This document shows positions 1 through 22,998 of a stretch of 22,998 nucleotides of DNA, piece by piece. Source of the stretch: a virus. A model generated the notes under the pieces. The model was not told the origin of the DNA, searched no databases, and saw only the letters and a list, made by a program, of their open reading frames with translations. The translations under genes were made by a program, and so were the position numbers. Where the stretch lies: positions 1 through 22,998 of the IMG/VR virus record IMGVR_UViG_3300042305_001309; one strand, written 5' to 3'. Numbering within the stretch: the first letter of the stretch is position 1; each line of letters starts with the position of its first letter.

Positions 1-3000
1 GCCCCCTTCGTCACCAAGACCGACAGCTGGGTCAGCCTGGCGCTGAAGCGCATCATGGTCATGGCCGCCGAGGGCGGTTACGACCGCGTGGCTTTCATCA
101 CCGGCCAGCAGGCGGTAGACCTGTACGACCTGAGCAAGCAGGTCGATGAACTTAGGTACGGGGAGGGGATGCTTGTCGCTATTAAAAACGGCACCATCAT
201 CTCGTCCAGAGAAGTGTCCAAGGAAGAGCTCCCCGACAACGTGGGCAAAGAGGCGGCCGATCGGCTGCTGAACAACCCGACGGAGACGACGCCTAACGGC
301 TACGCCGTTTTGTCAGGCGTCGACCTCAAGGTCGGCGGCGAGGGCATGCGCGCGTTCTACGACCAGATCGTGCCGGCTGCCGTCAAGAAGCTGCTGCCGA
401 AGGCCGGTGGTGGGCGGATGGCAAGCGTCTTGATTGGAAAGCCTGCCTATGACTTCACCATCCGCCAGGATGGAGCCAATGAATTTAGCGTTCTTGGTCC
501 CGATTACAACGTGGTTTCAACTTACTCGACATGGGGCGCGGCAGAAGCAGATGCCGAACGCAGGAATGAGGCATCCGACGGCAAGATAACGCGCCAACCC
601 GGCTTCGACGTCACCGACGCCATGCGTCAGGCCGTGGGCGTAGGCCTGCCGCTGTTCAACATCAGCCAGTCCCCCGCCCCCGCCTTTGCCCAGGTCGACC
701 CGAAGCGCCGCGAGAACTTCCGCGGCCGCATCGATGGCCTGCAGAAGCGCCTCGACGCCGGCAAGATGACGGACGCCGAGTTCCAGCTTGCCGTCAAGGA
801 AGCGGTCAGCTCGATGCGCGCCGAGCGCGATGCGCGCCGGGCGACCACGACCGGCAAGGACCGGCGCCGCGGTGCGGACTGGGTGAAGTCGCGGCTCCGC
901 AAGGCGGCCTCGAACAACGAGATCCCGGCCGTTGAGGCCGCGTTCGCCGAGTGGCTGATCGACCAGAACCCGGCGATCGCGGAAGACCTCGCCATCAGCA
1001 TCCGCCGGGCGCCGGAAGGCAGCAGCGCCGCTGCGAACTACAGCCCAGCAGCACGGCTCGTCAGTATCTTCAAGGGCGCCTCGGACGGCGACTCCACGAA
1101 TCACGAGATCCTGCACCACACCGAGCGCATGATGCCGGAGGAAGTGCAGGCCGGCATCTTCGCCGAGTGGCAAAAGGCCTTCATGGCCGCGCTTCGTGGC
1201 GCCGACAAAGAGACGCGCAAGCTGTTGCTCGACATGCTGGCGGCCTCCTATGGCAGCCAGTCCGCCAAGGAGCGCGTGACGAGCGCCTTCAACAACGGCT
1301 TGCTGACCTACAACCCGCACTACCAGCTCTACAGCCCGTCGGAGTTCTGGGCGGTCAACGGCAGCCGAATCCTGGCCGACCGGTTCATGGCCCAGAAGTC
1401 TTGGGTCAAGCGCGCGAAACAGTGGCTCAAGGAGATGATAGAGCACGTCAAGGGCTTGCTCGGCCTGCCCTCCGACGCCCCGGTGCTGAGGGCTCTCAAG
1501 GCCGTGCTGGAAGGCGACGGCGAGTTCCAGCCCGGCGCCGGGATGCTCACGGACAGGGATCGGTCGTCGCTCGTCAACGAGATCGCCAACGACGCGGAGG
1601 TTTCGGAAGCGGCCGCCAGCGCCGCGGAGACTCAGAGCTTCGACAACATCCAGCGCCGCGTACGGAACAACGTCATCCAGTTCTGGGGCAACCGCAAGGG
1701 CTCGATCAAGAACTTCAGCGGCTACGACCGTACTATCGCCACGCAATACCACAAGGCGCTCAAAGACCCGGACTTCGGCAAGGTGTTCGCGCTCGTCAAC
1801 GCGACGCTCAACGCCGTGTCGACGACTTCGATCCGCCCGGCCGAGCTCGCCCCCGGCATCTTGCCGAAGGTCGAGGACGTGCGCTCGGCGGTCCGCGCGG
1901 CCTTCGGCCGCGGTCTGGCGCGCCGCGACCTCGAGGTGGCGGCCAACGCCGTCTTCGCCGGCACCCTCGTTGGCAAGAGCGCGATGGACGGCCGAGTGTG
2001 GTCGGAAGCCGAGTTCATGAGCAAGTTTGATGGCGCGAACGCTGCGTCGTGGGCGCTCTACAAGCAGTCCCGGGCGGCGATCGACGCCAGCCTGGACGAG
2101 CTGGCGGCCGCCGAAGCCTACTCGATCGTGCAGGACATGGTGCCGCGCAGCGCGCGCAGCAGGATCTTGGACGACGTGAACACGGCGCGCCCGACCATCT
2201 TCGGCGCCATCGACCTGCGGATTCGCATGATGAAGCGGAATCTGGAGCAGGCCGTAGCCTCGAAGAACGACCAGGCCGTCGCGGAGATCCAGGCCGAAAT
2301 CGACGCGATGCAGGTCACGCGAGACAAGGTGCTCAAGATCTTCGGCATCGCCAAGCAGCTCAAGGAAGGAGGCTACGCGCCGCTGATGCGGTTCGGCCGG
2401 TTCGGTGTGACCGTGACCAAGATCGACCCGCTGACCGGGCAGCCGGACAGCGCGGACGGCGATGCCACGCTGTTCTTCGCGCGCTACGAGTCCGAGTCGG
2501 AGGCGAAAGCCGCTCTCAGGGAGCTCAAGGCCCAGTACGGCGACGACAAGACCATCAAGATCACGGCGGCGCCGGTATCCGAGAAGTCCCACGAGCTCTA
2601 CTCCGGTATCTCGCCGGAGACCATCGCCATCTTCGCCGAGACCATCGGCGCGGAATCGGCGATGAAGAAGTACATCGAGAACGTCGCCAGCGAACGCTCC
2701 GCGCTCAAGCGGCGGCTCGACCGCAAGGGCACCGCCGGGTTCAACCGCGAGATGCCGCGCGTCCTCTCGAACTTCATCACCTCGAACGCCCGGTACAGCG
2801 CGCAGCGGTACTTCATGAAGGAGATCGACCGCTCGATCTCGCGCATACCGAAGCAGACCAAGGGCGACGTGCGGGACGAGGCGATCGACCTCAAGAACTT
2901 CGTCATGAGCCCGTCGGACTCCGGCGCGGCCGCGTCCTCGGCGATGTTCGTCTGGTTCCTCACCGGCTCGGTCGCGGCGGCGGCGGTCAACCTGACCCAG

Positions 3001-4401
3001 ACCGTTACGATGACCATGCCGTACCTGTCGCAGTTCGGCGGCCCAGGTGCGCTGCCGAAGGCGATGGCCAAGGCGATGCCGGTGGCGATGGGCAAGCGCG
3101 AGGCGGACCCAGAGTTGCGCGCCGCGCTGAAGCGCGCCAATCAGGAAGGCATCGTCGACGCGCAGGAGATCTTCCACCTCTACAGCGTCGGCGCTCAGAG
3201 CGTGGCAAAGGGGGTCGGCAAGCTGGTCGGCGCGGGGGACAGCGCCAGGGCGCGGCTCAATGCGACCCTGACCCTGCTCGGCTCGATGTTCTCGCTGGCC
3301 GAGAAGTTCAACCGCAAGCTGGCATTCACAACCGCTTACGAGCTCGCGCGCGAGATCGGCGCCGCTGACCCCTACGCTTTTGCCGTCCGCACGGTCAACA
3401 CGACGCAGGGCGTCTTCAGCAAGGCCGGGCGCCCCAACTGGGCGCGCTCGATCCCGGGGCGCCTCATCTTCACCTTCAAACAGTTCTCCATCATGTATGT
3501 GGAGATGTTCGTTCGGATGTGGAAGCACGGCGGCCCGGAGGGTAAGCGCGCGTGTTTGATCATGCTCGGAGTCCTCATGCTTCTGGCCGGTGAGGAAGGT
3601 CTGCCGTTCATGCAGGATCTGAACGACCTGATCGACACGCTCGGCCAGATCGCAGGCTACGACACCAACGTCGCGCGCTCGAAGCGCCGCTTGGCGCACG
3701 AGCTGCTTGGCAAGGAGCTGGGCGACTTCTTCCTGTACGGCATGTCGTCGGCGCTGCCGCTCGACTGGCACGGGCGTCTCGGCGTCGGCAACCTGATCCC
3801 GGGCACCGGCCTGTTGAAGCCGTCGAACGAGGGCAGGCGGACACGCGAGATCGCGGAGATCATCGGCCCGAGCGCCGGCGCGGCCACGCAGATGTCGGAC
3901 GCGGTCGACGCGGCCTTCGAGGGCAAGCCCCTGAAGGCGCTGCAGAACGCCTCCCCGAAGTTCATCAAGGACGCCATGCAGGCCGCGGAGTGGGGCTCGA
4001 AGGGCTACGCCACGGACAGCCGCGGCCGGATGCTCACCGAGGTCGACGGCCTCGATGTCGCCCTCAAGGGCATCGGCTTCCAGCCCACGGCGGTCGCCGA
4101 GAGGCAGCGCGCCGCCGGTCCGCTGTATCAGGACATCGCGCTGCAGAAGCGGGTCGAGTCGAGCATCATCGACGCCTGGGCGTCGGGGATCGTCGCCGGG
4201 GACGACAAGGCGATCGACAAGGCCGCCAAGAAGCTCGACGACTGGAACAGGAAGAACCCGGACACCCCGGTCGTCATCACGCAGCAGCAGCTCATGGATC
4301 GGGTCAAGACCATGTCGCTTGGCCGCGACCAGGCGCTACTCAAGACTGCGCCGCGTGAGCTGCGCGGCCGGGTCGCGGAAGGGCTCGACTCCGTCGAGTA
4401 G
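1..4401 (+). CDS. Giant polyvalent virion protein (PLxRFG type), 3' part
   Basis: The frame is open from base 1, so the gene starts upstream; 1466 residues are present (residues counted from base 1). Residues 10-80 and the phrase around 200-217 (FDVTDAMRQAV, GLPLF) match conserved segments of huge phage polyvalent proteins. A zinc-metallopeptidase motif HEILHH lies at residues 368-373, and Glu448 in SPSEFWA is a plausible third ligand. The signature PLMRFG is at 794-799. Hydrophobic segments at about 980-1000 and 1184-1197 could be membrane helices, and FTFKQFSIMYVEMF just before the second is typical of the family. These proteins are packaged in podovirus-like virions and are thought to be ejected into the host, combining protease, membrane and anti-host functions. 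The gene ends only 15 bp from a convergent minus-strand operon, with no terminator visible. The family call is firm; the separate activities are inferred. Confidence 0.9.
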   Translation, partial: APFVTKTDSWVSLALKRIMVMAAEGGYDRVAFITGQQAVDLYDLSKQVDELRYGEGMLVAIKNGTIISSREVSKEELPDNVGKEAADRLLNNPTETTPNGYAVLSGVDLKVGGEGMRAFYDQIVPAAVKKLLPKAGGGRMASVLIGKPAYDFTIRQDGANEFSVLGPDYNVVSTYSTWGAAEADAERRNEASDGKITRQPGFDVTDAMRQAVGVGLPLFNISQSPAPAFAQVDPKRRENFRGRIDGLQKRLDAGKMTDAEFQLAVKEAVSSMRAERDARRATTTGKDRRRGADWVKSRLRKAASNNEIPAVEAAFAEWLIDQNPAIAEDLAISIRRAPEGSSAAANYSPAARLVSIFKGASDGDSTNHEILHHTERMMPEEVQAGIFAEWQKAFMAALRGADKETRKLLLDMLAASYGSQSAKERVTSAFNNGLLTYNPHYQLYSPSEFWAVNGSRILADRFMAQKSWVKRAKQWLKEMIEHVKGLLGLPSDAPVLRALKAVLEGDGEFQPGAGMLTDRDRSSLVNEIANDAEVSEAAASAAETQSFDNIQRRVRNNVIQFWGNRKGSIKNFSGYDRTIATQYHKALKDPDFGKVFALVNATLNAVSTTSIRPAELAPGILPKVEDVRSAVRAAFGRGLARRDLEVAANAVFAGTLVGKSAMDGRVWSEAEFMSKFDGANAASWALYKQSRAAIDASLDELAAAEAYSIVQDMVPRSARSRILDDVNTARPTIFGAIDLRIRMMKRNLEQAVASKNDQAVAEIQAEIDAMQVTRDKVLKIFGIAKQLKEGGYAPLMRFGRFGVTVTKIDPLTGQPDSADGDATLFFARYESESEAKAALRELKAQYGDDKTIKITAAPVSEKSHELYSGISPETIAIFAETIGAESAMKKYIENVASERSALKRRLDRKGTAGFNREMPRVLSNFITSNARYSAQRYFMKEIDRSISRIPKQTKGDVRDEAIDLKNFVMSPSDSGAAASSAMFVWFLTGSVAAAAVNLTQTVTMTMPYLSQFGGPGALPKAMAKAMPVAMGKREADPELRAALKRANQEGIVDAQEIFHLYSVGAQSVAKGVGKLVGAGDSARARLNATLTLLGSMFSLAEKFNRKLAFTTAYELAREIGAADPYAFAVRTVNTTQGVFSKAGRPNWARSIPGRLIFTFKQFSIMYVEMFVRMWKHGGPEGKRACLIMLGVLMLLAGEEGLPFMQDLNDLIDTLGQIAGYDTNVARSKRRLAHELLGKELGDFFLYGMSSALPLDWHGRLGVGNLIPGTGLLKPSNEGRRTREIAEIIGPSAGAATQMSDAVDAAFEGKPLKALQNASPKFIKDAMQAAEWGSKGYATDSRGRMLTEVDGLDVALKGIGFQPTAVAERQRAAGPLYQDIALQKRVESSIIDAWASGIVAGDDKAIDKAAKKLDDWNRKNPDTPVVITQQQLMDRVKTMSLGRDQALLKTAPRELRGRVAEGLDSVE

Positions 4402-4416
4402 CTTTATTGGATCACG

Positions 4417-4617
4417 TCAGAACGGGATCTCGTCGTATTCCCAAGACGAGCACCCGGACTTGATGACCTCGACCGGTGGCTCTTCGCCGTTCGCCAGGAC
4501 GCACCCGGCGCTGTGAAAGTGGACGCAAGTCCGGCATCCGGTGTCCATCGTCTCGAGATACTGGATCTCGGCCTTCAGGTGCGTGATGCGCCTGTCGATC
4601 TCGGCTTTCGTTTTCAC
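4417..4617 (-). CDS. Small Cys-rich putative zinc-binding protein
   Basis: A 66-residue protein, last gene of the leftward early operon. The start is GTG, forming a GTGA overlap with the upstream stop. The N-terminal 25 residues are charged and helix-like (KAEIDRRITHLKAEIQYLE), followed by CRTCVHF, a Cys after GSAG-like sequence (SAGC) and a late Cys (SGCSSWEY). Four spaced cysteines suggest one zinc site. The pattern of a short coiled coil followed by C-x2-C...C...C is common among small phage proteins, but I do not recognise a named family. A role in nucleic-acid or protein binding is only an inference. Confidence 0.75.
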   Translation of the reverse strand: MKTKAEIDRRITHLKAEIQYLETMDTGCRTCVHFHSAGCVLANGEEPPVEVIKSGCSSWEYDEIPF

Positions 4618-10815: not shown

Positions 10816-13242
10816 GTGGCGGGGGAAAGCGTGTTCGAGCGCCATGCGTGGCGCTTCATCGAGCGGAACATCTCCGTCGTCCCCATCGCGCCGGGCTCCA
10901 AGCGCCCCGGGCGGTGGAGCGAGGCGGGTGGGTGGGAAGGCATGGGCGACTGGACTCGGTTCGCGCAGCGGATGCCGACCGAGATCGAGCTCAAGCATTG
11001 GGGCCAATGGCCGGACGCCGGCATCGGCGTGGTGCTGGGCGAGTTGTCCGGCGTCATCGGCCTCGACCGCGACTATGACGTGCCGGGTGCGTCCGACGCA
11101 CTCGACAAGCTCATTCCGTTCAGCCCGGTCGCCAAGAAGGGCGAGAAGGGGTGGACGAAGTTCTACCGCTACAACGGCGAGAGGTCGTGCAGCTTCAACG
11201 TGCAGGGGCACCGCGTCCTCGATGTGCTGTCGAACGGCCGCCAGACCGTCGTGCCGCCGACCGCGCACCCGAGCGGCTGCAGTTACGTCTGGATCACCGT
11301 CGATACGCTCGACGACATCACGAGCGTATCAGACCTGCCGACGCTGCCGGACGACTTCCTCGCGCAAGTCGAGGCGCTCCTTGCCCCGTACCAGAACGAC
11401 ACCGACAAGAAGTACCAGCGCAAGACCATCGCGCCGAACGAGGACACCTCAAAGATCGACACCGGGCTGTCGATCCAGGCGCAGTATTTCAGCGACCTCA
11501 ACCGAGCCGCGCTCACCCGCCTCGATGAATGGGTCGAGCGGCTGATCCCGACCGCCAAGACCAACAAAGACGGCTTCCGAGCCGTGGCGACGTGGCGCGG
11601 CGCCAAGAACCCGAACGTGGGCATCCACCCGTCCGGCATCTTCGACTTCGGCGGCAACTACGGGATGACGCCGATCGACCTGGTGATGTACTCCAACGGG
11701 CTCCCGTTCGCCAAGGCGGCGGAGACCCTCCGGGGGTGCCTCGCCCTGTCCGAGCCGGAGCCGATCACCTTGGGCGGCGCCACGCCGACGCAGAGCCCGT
11801 CTGAGCCGACCGCCCCGGCGTCCATGCCCACGATGCCGTGGCGCAAGCCGGCCGCCCCTGCGGCCTCCGTGGCGCCCCCACCGGCCATCATCCTCCCGGC
11901 CACCACGTCCGAGGCGCCGGCCAAGGCCATCCCGGCCTTCATCACCGACCCGCCCGGCATCCTCGCCGACATGGCGGGGTGGATCACGGCGACCGCCCCC
12001 AAGTCGCAGCCCGAGCTCAGCCTCGCCGCCGCGATCGCCATGGCCGCGGCCTGCACCCAGCGGATCTACCGGTCGAACCTGTCGAACTTCACGAGCCTGT
12101 ACCTCGTCATGGTGGCCAAGTCCACCGAGGGCAAGGAACACCCGCAGTCGTGCGTCGAGCGCGTCCTGACGGCGGCGGGGCTCGAGCACCTGGTCGCCGG
12201 GTCTGGCTACACCTCGAGCGGCGCCGTGTTCTCGGCGCTCCTGCGCCAACCGGCCCACCTGGCCATCATCGACGAAATCGGCAAGCTCCTGAAACTGTCG
12301 CGCGCGAAGGGCAACGCGAACTCGGAAGCGGCCATCGACAAGTTGGTCGAGGCGTTCGGCAAGCTGAACGGCGTCATGCGCCCCCCGGTCTACTCGACGA
12401 TGACGATGACGCAGGCGCAGGTCGCGGCCAGCAGCGTCGAGCGGGTCATCCATAACCCGGCGGTCAGCCTGCTCGGCGCGACCACCCCGGCAACCTTCTG
12501 GTCGTCCCTGACGGACGACCTGATCCAAGACGGCTTCCTTGGCCGCCTGATCGTGGTCGAGTCGAGCCAGCCCCGCCAGTTGGCGCGGTTCGTAGACCAG
12601 ACCGACCCCCCGGCACGGGTCGTCGAGTGGTGCCAGGCCGTGAACGCCCCAGCGCAGCGCCAGGGCGACCTGGCCTCGCGGAGCCTCGCGGAGCTGGAGC
12701 CGGTCACGGTCTCCATGACCATTTCCGACGGGTGTCAGGACGTCATGCGGTCGTTCGAGTCGGAGCTGAACAAGCTGAAGGACGCCTTCGAGGCCGAGGG
12801 GCTCGATGTCCTGCTCGGGCGAACTTTCGAGAAGGCGCTGCGCCTTGCCATGATCGCCGCGAAAGCGCGGGACGCCGGAGCGGCGCGCGTCGAGCTGCAG
12901 GATCTGGAGTGGGCAATCTCGTACATCCGGCACTACGACATGGCGCTCGTCCGTGCCGTGAGGAAGAACCGGGTTCGCAGTCAGACCGACGCCGACACCA
13001 AGCGGGTGCTCGAGTACCTGAAGGCGGCCAAGAGCTTCGCGGGGGAGCAGAAGAACCCGCGCCTCGCCTCCGTGCTTGCGACCGGCGCGATGCCCCACGC
13101 CCTGCTACTGAAGAAGATGCACATGAAGTCGAGGGAGTTCACCGAGCTGATGAACACGCTCGTCGAGGCGGGGATCGTGATGAAGAGCCCCGGCGCGCAC
13201 TTGCACTACGCCGGGGATGTTTACTTCACGGGCGAGGAATGA
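10816..13242 (+). CDS. Prim-Pol/DUF3987 primase-helicase
   Basis: 808 residues from a GTG with GGAAG eight bases before it. The N-terminal ~200 residues fit the bifunctional primase/polymerase (archaeo-eukaryotic primase) domain: VVPIAPGSKRP, then GVVLGELSGVIGLDRDYD with the catalytic-like Asp84 and Asp86, and VVPPTAHPSG with His151. A Pro/Ala-rich linker (about 315-370) leads to a DUF3987 helicase-like domain: VMVAKSTEGKEHP (Walker A-like, Lys440), LAIIDEIGKLL (Walker B, Asp486-Glu487) and IQDGFLGRLIVVE. The Walker A ends in GKE instead of GKS/T, as in some phage relatives. It should prime and unwind DNA for phage replication. The C-terminus looks like a winged helix (AKSFAGEQKNPRL, MKSREFTELMNTLVEAGIV). 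Its 3' end overlaps a convergent gene by 17 bp. Confidence 0.9.
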   Translation: MAGESVFERHAWRFIERNISVVPIAPGSKRPGRWSEAGGWEGMGDWTRFAQRMPTEIELKHWGQWPDAGIGVVLGELSGVIGLDRDYDVPGASDALDKLIPFSPVAKKGEKGWTKFYRYNGERSCSFNVQGHRVLDVLSNGRQTVVPPTAHPSGCSYVWITVDTLDDITSVSDLPTLPDDFLAQVEALLAPYQNDTDKKYQRKTIAPNEDTSKIDTGLSIQAQYFSDLNRAALTRLDEWVERLIPTAKTNKDGFRAVATWRGAKNPNVGIHPSGIFDFGGNYGMTPIDLVMYSNGLPFAKAAETLRGCLALSEPEPITLGGATPTQSPSEPTAPASMPTMPWRKPAAPAASVAPPPAIILPATTSEAPAKAIPAFITDPPGILADMAGWITATAPKSQPELSLAAAIAMAAACTQRIYRSNLSNFTSLYLVMVAKSTEGKEHPQSCVERVLTAAGLEHLVAGSGYTSSGAVFSALLRQPAHLAIIDEIGKLLKLSRAKGNANSEAAIDKLVEAFGKLNGVMRPPVYSTMTMTQAQVAASSVERVIHNPAVSLLGATTPATFWSSLTDDLIQDGFLGRLIVVESSQPRQLARFVDQTDPPARVVEWCQAVNAPAQRQGDLASRSLAELEPVTVSMTISDGCQDVMRSFESELNKLKDAFEAEGLDVLLGRTFEKALRLAMIAAKARDAGAARVELQDLEWAISYIRHYDMALVRAVRKNRVRSQTDADTKRVLEYLKAAKSFAGEQKNPRLASVLATGAMPHALLLKKMHMKSREFTELMNTLVEAGIVMKSPGAHLHYAGDVYFTGEE

Positions 13243-21879: not shown

Positions 21880-22209
21880 TCAGACGGCGAGGGACGGGAC
21901 TTCTTCGGTCAGGGCGATGAGTTGGTTGAGCATCTCGCCGTAGTAGAGGTACTCGCCCGAAATCATGTCGGCGCGGACGGTTCGGTTGTGGTCGTAGGCT
22001 TCCATGACCGCCGACACCGTGAGGTCGCACGGCGCGGTGGTGCAGTAGTCGAGGCCGCGAGTCACGTCGATGAACAGCACGCGCCCGTCGTCGAGTTTGG
22101 TGGCGGCGATGATTTGCCCGTGCGGGGCGTAGACGCGCCCGGACTGGAAGGCGATGGCGGGAAGGGTCAGGCCGATGGGGTCGGTGATGGTCGTTCGGAT
22201 GATGGTCAT
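21880..22209 (-). CDS. First gene of accessory array, unknown function
   Basis: 109 residues starting MTIIRTTITDPIGLTLPAIAFQSGRVYAPHGQIIAATKLDDGRVLFIDVTRGLDYCTTA; strand-rich N-terminus and helical C-terminus (SGEYLYYGEMLNQLIALTEEV). ATG preceded by CGGAG. It is the first gene after the putative origin, so its promoter should lie in 22210-22330. No recognised family. Confidence 0.75.
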   Translation of the reverse strand: MTIIRTTITDPIGLTLPAIAFQSGRVYAPHGQIIAATKLDDGRVLFIDVTRGLDYCTTAPCDLTVSAVMEAYDHNRTVRADMISGEYLYYGEMLNQLIALTEEVPSLAV

Positions 22210-22340: not shown

Positions 22341-22366
22341 GCGCGGTTCCCGGCAGTTCCCCAAAG

Positions 22367-22383
22367 TTCCCAAGACTTGGGAA
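22367..22383. repeat. Paired iterons, TTCCCAAG A CTTGGGAA
   Basis: A perfect 17-bp palindrome formed by two TTCCCAAG units facing each other across one base. It sits just before the AT-rich tract and is the likeliest binding site of an initiator dimer. Confidence 0.8.
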
Positions 22384-22401
22384 GCGGTATTAGACCTGGA
22401 G

Positions 22402-22456
22402 TAAAGGATATAAGTATATGATTAATATATATTTTTTACTTTATTTCTCTATCTCT
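22402..22456. other. AT-rich tract (presumed unwinding element)
   Basis: About 55 bases with very few G or C, including TATAAGTATATGATTAATAT and a T-rich end, inside an otherwise GC-rich genome. It fits a DNA unwinding element between iterons and DnaA box. It could also serve as a promoter. Confidence 0.75.
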
Positions 22457-22467
22457 CACCCCCTGCG

Positions 22468-22563
22468 TTTCCCAAGTTCCCAGTCATCCCCCCTTGCTTG
22501 GACTTATCCACAGGTAGGTATCCCCGGACTCAGGGAACACGGGGATGTTGGGAACTTGGGAAA
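22468..22563. repeat. Long inverted repeat of iterons
   Basis: TTTCCCAAGTTCCCA (22468-22482) and TGGGAACTTGGGAAA (22549-22563) are perfect 15-bp inverted copies, enclosing the DnaA box. Between them TCCCCG...CGGGGA (22521-22545) forms a smaller inverted pair. Confidence 0.8.
22504..22512 (+). promoter_or_regulatory. DnaA box TTATCCACA
   Basis: Exact match to the consensus high-affinity DnaA box. Its place between the iteron copies and beside the AT-rich tract makes a chance occurrence unlikely. Confidence 0.75.
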
Positions 22564-22618
22564 TTGAGGGTGTTTTCGGTCGGTTTTTCTTTCACGGTCA
22601 ATGGGTTAGGCGCGGAAA

Positions 22619-22664
22619 GGCGTTTCCCGAGGCTTGGGAACTTCGGGGAATCGTGGGAAACGCC
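22619..22664. repeat. Inverted repeat GGCGTTTCCC...GGGAAACGCC
   Basis: Perfect 10-bp arms (22619-22628, 22655-22664) around an inner CTTGGGAA iteron and GGGGAA variant. It marks the right end of the iteron region and may be an initiator or accessory-factor site. Confidence 0.7.
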
Positions 22665-22799: not shown

Positions 22800-22998
22800 A
22801 TGGATAGAGCAAAACGCAATCGGGTCGAGGAACGGGAGCAGGCACGGGTGGTGCGGTGGTCGCACCTGCAAGCGGTGAGGGCGGTCGCGCCGGAACTTCG
22901 ATGGCTGCATCACTCGCCGAACGGTGGGCGCCGGGACGGCTTCACCGGGGCGCAGATGGTGGCACTCGGCGTCAAGCGCGGGTGGCCGGATTTAGTCC
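22800..22998 (+). CDS. VRR-NUC nuclease, 5' part
   Basis: 66 codons to the window edge. HLQAVRAVAPELRWLHHSPNGGRRDGFTGAQMVALGVKRGWPDLV fits the VRR-NUC domain (PNGG.R......A..L...GVK.G.PDL), a PD-(D/E)XK-type nuclease module common in phages and thought to act on Holliday junctions or flaps. The Asp of WPDLV is expected to be catalytic; the later ExK motif lies outside the window. The ATG at 22800 is the first after an in-frame TGA; its ribosome-binding site (GGAG, 14 bases away) is poor. Confidence 0.85.
   Translation, partial: MDRAKRNRVEEREQARVVRWSHLQAVRAVAPELRWLHHSPNGGRRDGFTGAQMVALGVKRGWPDLV

Follow-up and report, generated by a model that had tools for sequence, protein, structure and literature searches.

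Near the right end of a linear viral DNA record lies a segment free of long genes, in which short repeats in both orientations surround an AT-rich tract. What does this segment do, and which protein reads it? The window analyzed here is the whole 22,998-base IMG/VR record (IMGVR_UViG_3300042305_001309), a 23-kb fragment. Megablast of the window DNA against a phage collection returned no matching record, and Rfam and tRNA searches of the window found nothing.

The segment is bounded by a leftward open reading frame (ATG at 22209) and a rightward VRR-NUC open reading frame (ATG at 22800), with only short overlapping frames inside. A leftward cluster of small genes, one of them a RadC-domain gene, lies to the left of the array. 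At the far end of the window, positions 1–4401 (+ strand) encode a large protein that is open at the record's left end and matches a PHROG annotated as DarB-like antirestriction. The features discussed below are as follows (F, forward; R, inverted).

10816–13242, + strand: gene for a Prim-Pol primase of 808 aa with a helicase-like middle and a C-terminal winged helix; proposed iteron-binding initiator
22347–22383, no single strand: left iteron group FFFR, with TTCCC at 22347, 22357 and 22367 (forward, 10-bp spacing) and inverted GGGAA at 22379–22383; aligned in five TTCCC-type relatives
22400–22454, + strand: AT-rich core, candidate DNA-unwinding element; its ATATAAGTATATGATTAATATATAT part corresponds to GTAAGTnnTTGATATATATATA of relatives and is followed by a T/pyrimidine-rich tract
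22469–22481, + strand: middle forward iteron pair, TTCCC at 22469 and 22477 (8-bp spacing); from the site map and alignment with relatives
22504–22512, + strand: DnaA box TTATCCACA, exact match
22533–22562, − strand: inverted iteron triplet, GGGAA at 22533, 22550 and 22558; from the site map and alignment with relatives
22624–22659, no single strand: right iteron group F, RRR, with TTCCC at 22624 and GGGAA at 22636, 22646 and 22655; from the site map and alignment with relatives
22800–22998, + strand: VRR-NUC-like nuclease gene (phrog_824), cut by the record end and lying right of the origin in relatives too; named from the annotated VRR-NUC gene at the same position in RHph_TM3_3_14B and from motif reading

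Thirteen short iterons mirror each other around an AT-rich core

The original prediction, made from the letters of the DNA, had read this segment as a replication origin built from exact 8-mers, an inverted pair, a DnaA box and an AT-rich tract. Five exact copies of TTCCCAAG were located at 22367–22374 (+), 22376–22383 (−), 22469–22476 (+), 22555–22562 (−) and 22633–22640 (−), spanning 274 bp, and the sole further copy in the window is at 4438–4445. When the window was dinucleotide-shuffled 100 times, no shuffle reached six copies. The perfect 15-bp inverted pair (22468–22482 and 22549–22563) is the only such pair within 500 bp in the window; a search of viral contigs for the exact palindrome pattern returned none. 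The DnaA box is perfect and has no second exact copy in the window, and the AT tract at ~22400–22454 reaches 84% AT over 55 bp, compared to 64% for the next most AT-rich 55-mer elsewhere in the window. All listed elements were therefore present where they had been placed, but the repeat unit proved to be shorter than the proposed 8-mer, namely TTCCC(A).

Repeat units were found by k-mer counts with shuffles, followed by seeded site maps whose seeds we picked from the k-mers and from reading the sequence; EM motif discovery was dropped because the AT tract swamped it. Within 22347–22659 there are 13 TTCCC/GGGAA sites with the mirrored layout FFFR / AT core / FF, RRR / F, RRR. The 324-bp segment thus holds 13 sites where 0.31 are expected, compared to 22 in the other 22.7 kb (Poisson P ~3.5e-17), and no dinucleotide shuffle of the array region matched its best 6-mer count. 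The array is the sole dense cluster in the window, as is its counterpart in each of five 55–65-kb relatives scanned with their own repeat.

The layout and core are conserved while the repeat changes

In about 20 related phages, the region upstream of the VRR-NUC gene has this layout too, with a core, GTAAGTnnTTGATATATATA, that hardly varies. There are relatives of 52–65 kb, and the relative L018 has terminase and portal-like genes, as read from translations. The shared plan consists of forward iterons with one inverted, the AT-rich core starting GTAAGTnnTTGATATATATA, a forward pair, an inverted group and a final forward/reverse group. Plan and core are kept, whereas the repeat differs among relatives (TTCCCA, TTCACA, TTCCGG, TTCCCC, TTCCAC, TTCTC and TT[AC]GTA); conservation is stronger in the core than in the repeats. 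In 19 of the 23 origin regions tested, no more than 2 of 200 dinucleotide shuffles reached the count of the commonest 6-mer; taken alone, the repeats of L019, L020, L092 and L095 were non-significant (18–20 of 200 shuffles). Exact DnaA boxes occur in 6/23 origins compared to 0.19 expected, and are missing from most relatives.

The surroundings of the core vary in places. An additional gene, downstream of the core, separates the core from the VRR-NUC gene in L076, L036, L037 and L028. In the origins of L002, L012, L033 and L035, the start of the core motif (GTAAGTcnTTGTC) appears a second time, right of the inverted iterons. Five relatives encode, between origin and VRR-NUC gene, a stand-alone protein of ~160–205 aa with a primase-type winged helix (from L022:9283, L025:481, L034:353, L028:1222 and L037:1109 on); a possible role is that of an origin-competing regulator.

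A similar order of primase, iterons with AT tract and nuclease occurs in more distant isolates, namely Rhizobium phage RHph_TM3_3_14B and Sinorhizobium phage AP-16-3 (repeat TTCCAA; primase ~30% identical), and a similar order with RusA replacing VRR-NUC is found in Stenotrophomonas phage Bhz54. In all three the array directly follows the primase gene, and the equivalents are unannotated. In Bhz54, ATCCCC/GGGGAT repeats surround an AT tract between the primase and RusA genes (L161:4321–4735), and the right end has a long direct repeat; this is a probable unannotated origin. An 82-kb bacterial contig has an AT-rich tract surrounded by TTTCACAT iterons (L154:10611–10905), with a distant primase on one side and a VRR-NUC-like gene on the other. 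The arrangement was not seen in Sinorhizobium NV1.1.1 and several other Prim-Pol phages, and the same scan detected no iteron cluster at several more distant Prim-Pol loci.

The primase winged helix is a candidate iteron reader

The original prediction had proposed a search for a Rep or initiator gene. The candidate initiator is the Prim-Pol primase, assigned by Pfam; no plasmid-type Rep was recognised among the window ORFs scanned. The primase was detected in 14 of the 18 related records searched, some of the remainder being fragments. Its best Foldseek match is the NrS-1 Prim-Pol (6a9w, E 1.3e-3, with a low TM score), and a PDB profile search with the primase gave nothing convincing past weak ORF904 hits. 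The C-terminal 176 residues are predicted by AlphaFold2 as a helical region plus winged helix (pLDDT 91.5), the latter at about residues 748–805 (near window 13057–13230). This C-terminus has 70-residue matches to MarR-type domains (Z ~9.7, rmsd 2.3); matches to an MCM lid plus winged helix were set aside, as their Z of ~10 came with an rmsd of ~11. In the full-primase prediction, confidence was too low in the helicase-like middle, which contains a P-loop-like motif, STEGKEHP, without the usual Ser/Thr. Self-loading helicase activity of the primase is therefore uncertain.

Judged from aligned sequences, the repeats and the primase apparently change together between relatives. The natural pair L071/L082 has primases that are 92% identical (66 differences over 798 positions), and 7 of the 66 differences fall within a 29-residue winged-helix stretch (Fisher P 0.007). 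Their cores are nearly identical, while all five comparable iterons read TTCCC in one and TTCAC in the other (C to A); the comparison covers the left group, as the L082 contig ends within the origin. In a scan of 580 variable primase columns, residue 766 ranked first for repeat base 4 (K with C/T, R with A and Q with G), scoring 0.63 with the next primase column at 0.44, and residue 769 ranked second for base 5. Family-wise permutation over all columns gave 4.8% for residue 766 and 9.1% for residue 769, values obtained from 16 sequences with shared ancestry ignored and with the K/R pattern noticed before the scan; one base assignment (L095) comes from a repeat that is non-significant alone (20/200 shuffles). 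The top covarying columns lie partly outside the winged helix, with residue 631 first for base 5 and residue 596 first for base 6, and one VRR-NUC column also reached an nMI of 0.52 for base 4, with one fewer lineage. The covariation of residue 766 with repeat base 4 is thus suggestive of a link to the primase winged helix.

The segment is very probably a phage replication origin

Taken together, the architecture present in ~20 relatives, the conserved AT-rich core, the excess of DnaA boxes and the coupling to the primase uphold the replication-origin reading, and we regard the segment as very probably the replication origin of a tailed phage. None of the contrary signs named beforehand (a skew minimum and replication start elsewhere, or conservation of the repeats as a packaging or transcription site in relatives) appeared. 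The GC-skew part of this check was uninformative: in four of five relatives the extremum lay 2–6 kb from the origin, but it had the wrong sign, being a maximum, and tracked the strand of the genes.

The sequence itself shows the iteron array with its layout, the core, the conservation of these features and their association with the primase and VRR-NUC genes. We infer that the primase is the binding protein, that DnaA participates, that the core is melted and that this is where replication begins. Copies of the Prim-Pol/helicase-like initiator would bind the 13 TTCCC(A) iterons through the C-terminal winged helix, placing bound initiator in mirrored arrays on either side of the AT-rich core. 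The core would then melt, helped by host DnaA where a DnaA box exists, and the initiator would be loaded onto the exposed strands and prime synthesis. That the origin is read by the primase C-terminal winged helix appears probable.

An unlikely variant keeps the origin and assigns the iterons to another small, unannotated phage DNA-binding protein, with the primase recruited later. The primase gene is 9 kb from the array in the window, for most of the small leftward genes no function could be assigned, and the top-ranked residues for bases 5 and 6 (631 and 596) fall outside the winged helix, all of which would suit such a protein. Set against this, residue 766 stands apart for base 4 (0.63 versus 0.44) within the predicted DNA-binding fold, winged helix and iterons changed jointly in L071/L082, and the array lies directly 3′ of the primase gene in the Rhizobium, Sinorhizobium and Stenotrophomonas phages.

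Two further readings deny the origin altogether. The iterons could be operators through which a transcription factor controls the VRR-NUC gene on the right and the divergent genes on the left, as the array sits between divergent gene groups in the window and L018 has a gene for a repressor of Cro/CI type whose C-terminus is S24-like (read by eye). This is very improbable, given that an 84% AT core, a DnaA box and 13 sites spread over 310 bp do not resemble operators, that in RHph_TM3_3_14B the array lies between two co-directional genes, and that the core outlasts the repeat sequence in conservation. We give equally little credence to a packaging (pac) site or partition centromere: terminase genes do lie ~2–3 kb downstream of the VRR-NUC gene in L018 and ~3 kb downstream in RHph_TM3_3_14B, but a pac site usually falls within the small terminase gene or next to it, no par gene was recognised among the window ORFs scanned, and the AT-rich core, DnaA boxes and primase coupling suit neither role.

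Under the preferred reading, an origin bound by the primase, unannotated origins would be assigned for a widespread Prim-Pol phage group, including isolated Rhizobium, Sinorhizobium and Stenotrophomonas phages. With one scaffold, many repeat codes and the near-minimal pair L071/L082, the recognition code of the initiator winged helix would be directly testable by few-residue swaps. In the literature searchable here, we found no description of a scaffold with switching repeat codes in Prim-Pol phages or of the adjacent stand-alone winged-helix gene. More speculatively, and with rather low expectation, a fixed 13-site scaffold might have its repeat code swapped together with a few winged-helix residues, some phages might encode the stand-alone winged helix as a competing regulator or as a weapon against code-sharing rivals, and an arms race over origin recognition might drive the switching.

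The phage family looks temperate and integrating

The original prediction had further suggested a phage-plasmid or a plasmid-derived origin, which the relatives do not support. Ten of 18 carry a tyrosine integrase, and one is integrated beside guaA in a Comamonas contig; because of these integrases and this prophage, the family looks temperate and integrating. The Comamonas odontotermitis relative occupies ~12946–68553 of a 77-kb contig, with guaA in one flank and genes for conjugation and restriction in the other, and a search for an attachment repeat of this prophage found none. Within it, tRNA-Arg, tRNA-Ser, a permuted tmRNA and tRNA-Met are clustered (L157:988–2000).

A phage-plasmid using the array as a plasmid-derived iteron origin for prophage maintenance is accordingly a remote prospect. 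The combination of iterons, DnaA box and AT tract does resemble iteron plasmids, but iterons are ordinary in phages and satellites too (lambda, P4 and SaPI) and are therefore no pointer to plasmids by themselves. Plasmid genes could also lie outside the window, and their absence from this 23-kb fragment proves little. Against this reading speak the integrases, the guaA-linked prophage and the lack of a recognisable plasmid-type Rep among the window ORFs scanned. The origin most likely serves lytic replication.

Comparison with known replication systems

The kind of system is already known, and its closest known mechanisms appear to be the P4 alpha and SaPI Rep replicons, which resemble it in how they work. 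P4 alpha combines primase, helicase and a C-terminal origin-binding activity in one protein and uses short bidirectional iterons near an AT-rich region (ori1); a second iteron site, crr, is needed for replication. It is the closest functional analogue: iterons of either orientation likewise lie close to an AT-rich stretch here, and the window primase may share the primase, helicase and C-terminal DNA-binding plan. Unlike P4, neither the window nor the five relatives scanned have a second dense cluster equivalent to crr, and the layout here is mirrored, with ~13 sites and, in some members, DnaA boxes. The lambda origin likewise joins phage iterons to an adjacent AT-rich region, although O is not a primase and its gene contains the iterons.

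SaPI Rep recognises an iteron origin via its C-terminal domain, and SCCmec Cch2 binds a putative origin in the same way (PMC7581432). Their origins lie just downstream of the initiator gene, an arrangement also seen in the Rhizobium, Sinorhizobium and Stenotrophomonas phages, whereas in the family described here the origin may be 5–9 kb from the primase gene, beside the nuclease gene. They also differ in having other domains (DUF927 or D5/Primase_Cterm) and in belonging to satellites or cassettes (PMC7581432). NrS-1 polymerase shares the N-terminal Prim-Pol with the window primase, with a related fold by Foldseek; in excerpts from PMC8718748, it recognises the template motif TTTGGTTA, and neither a mirrored iteron array nor a winged-helix origin reader is described for it. 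PLE of Vibrio cholerae is a satellite element with a RepA_N initiator and three ~30-bp repeats, and differs in these respects; its RepA offers a parallel for the switching repeats, as its DNA-binding domain varies in step with the origin in an otherwise conserved protein, and initiator and origin work only as a matched pair (PMC8263062).
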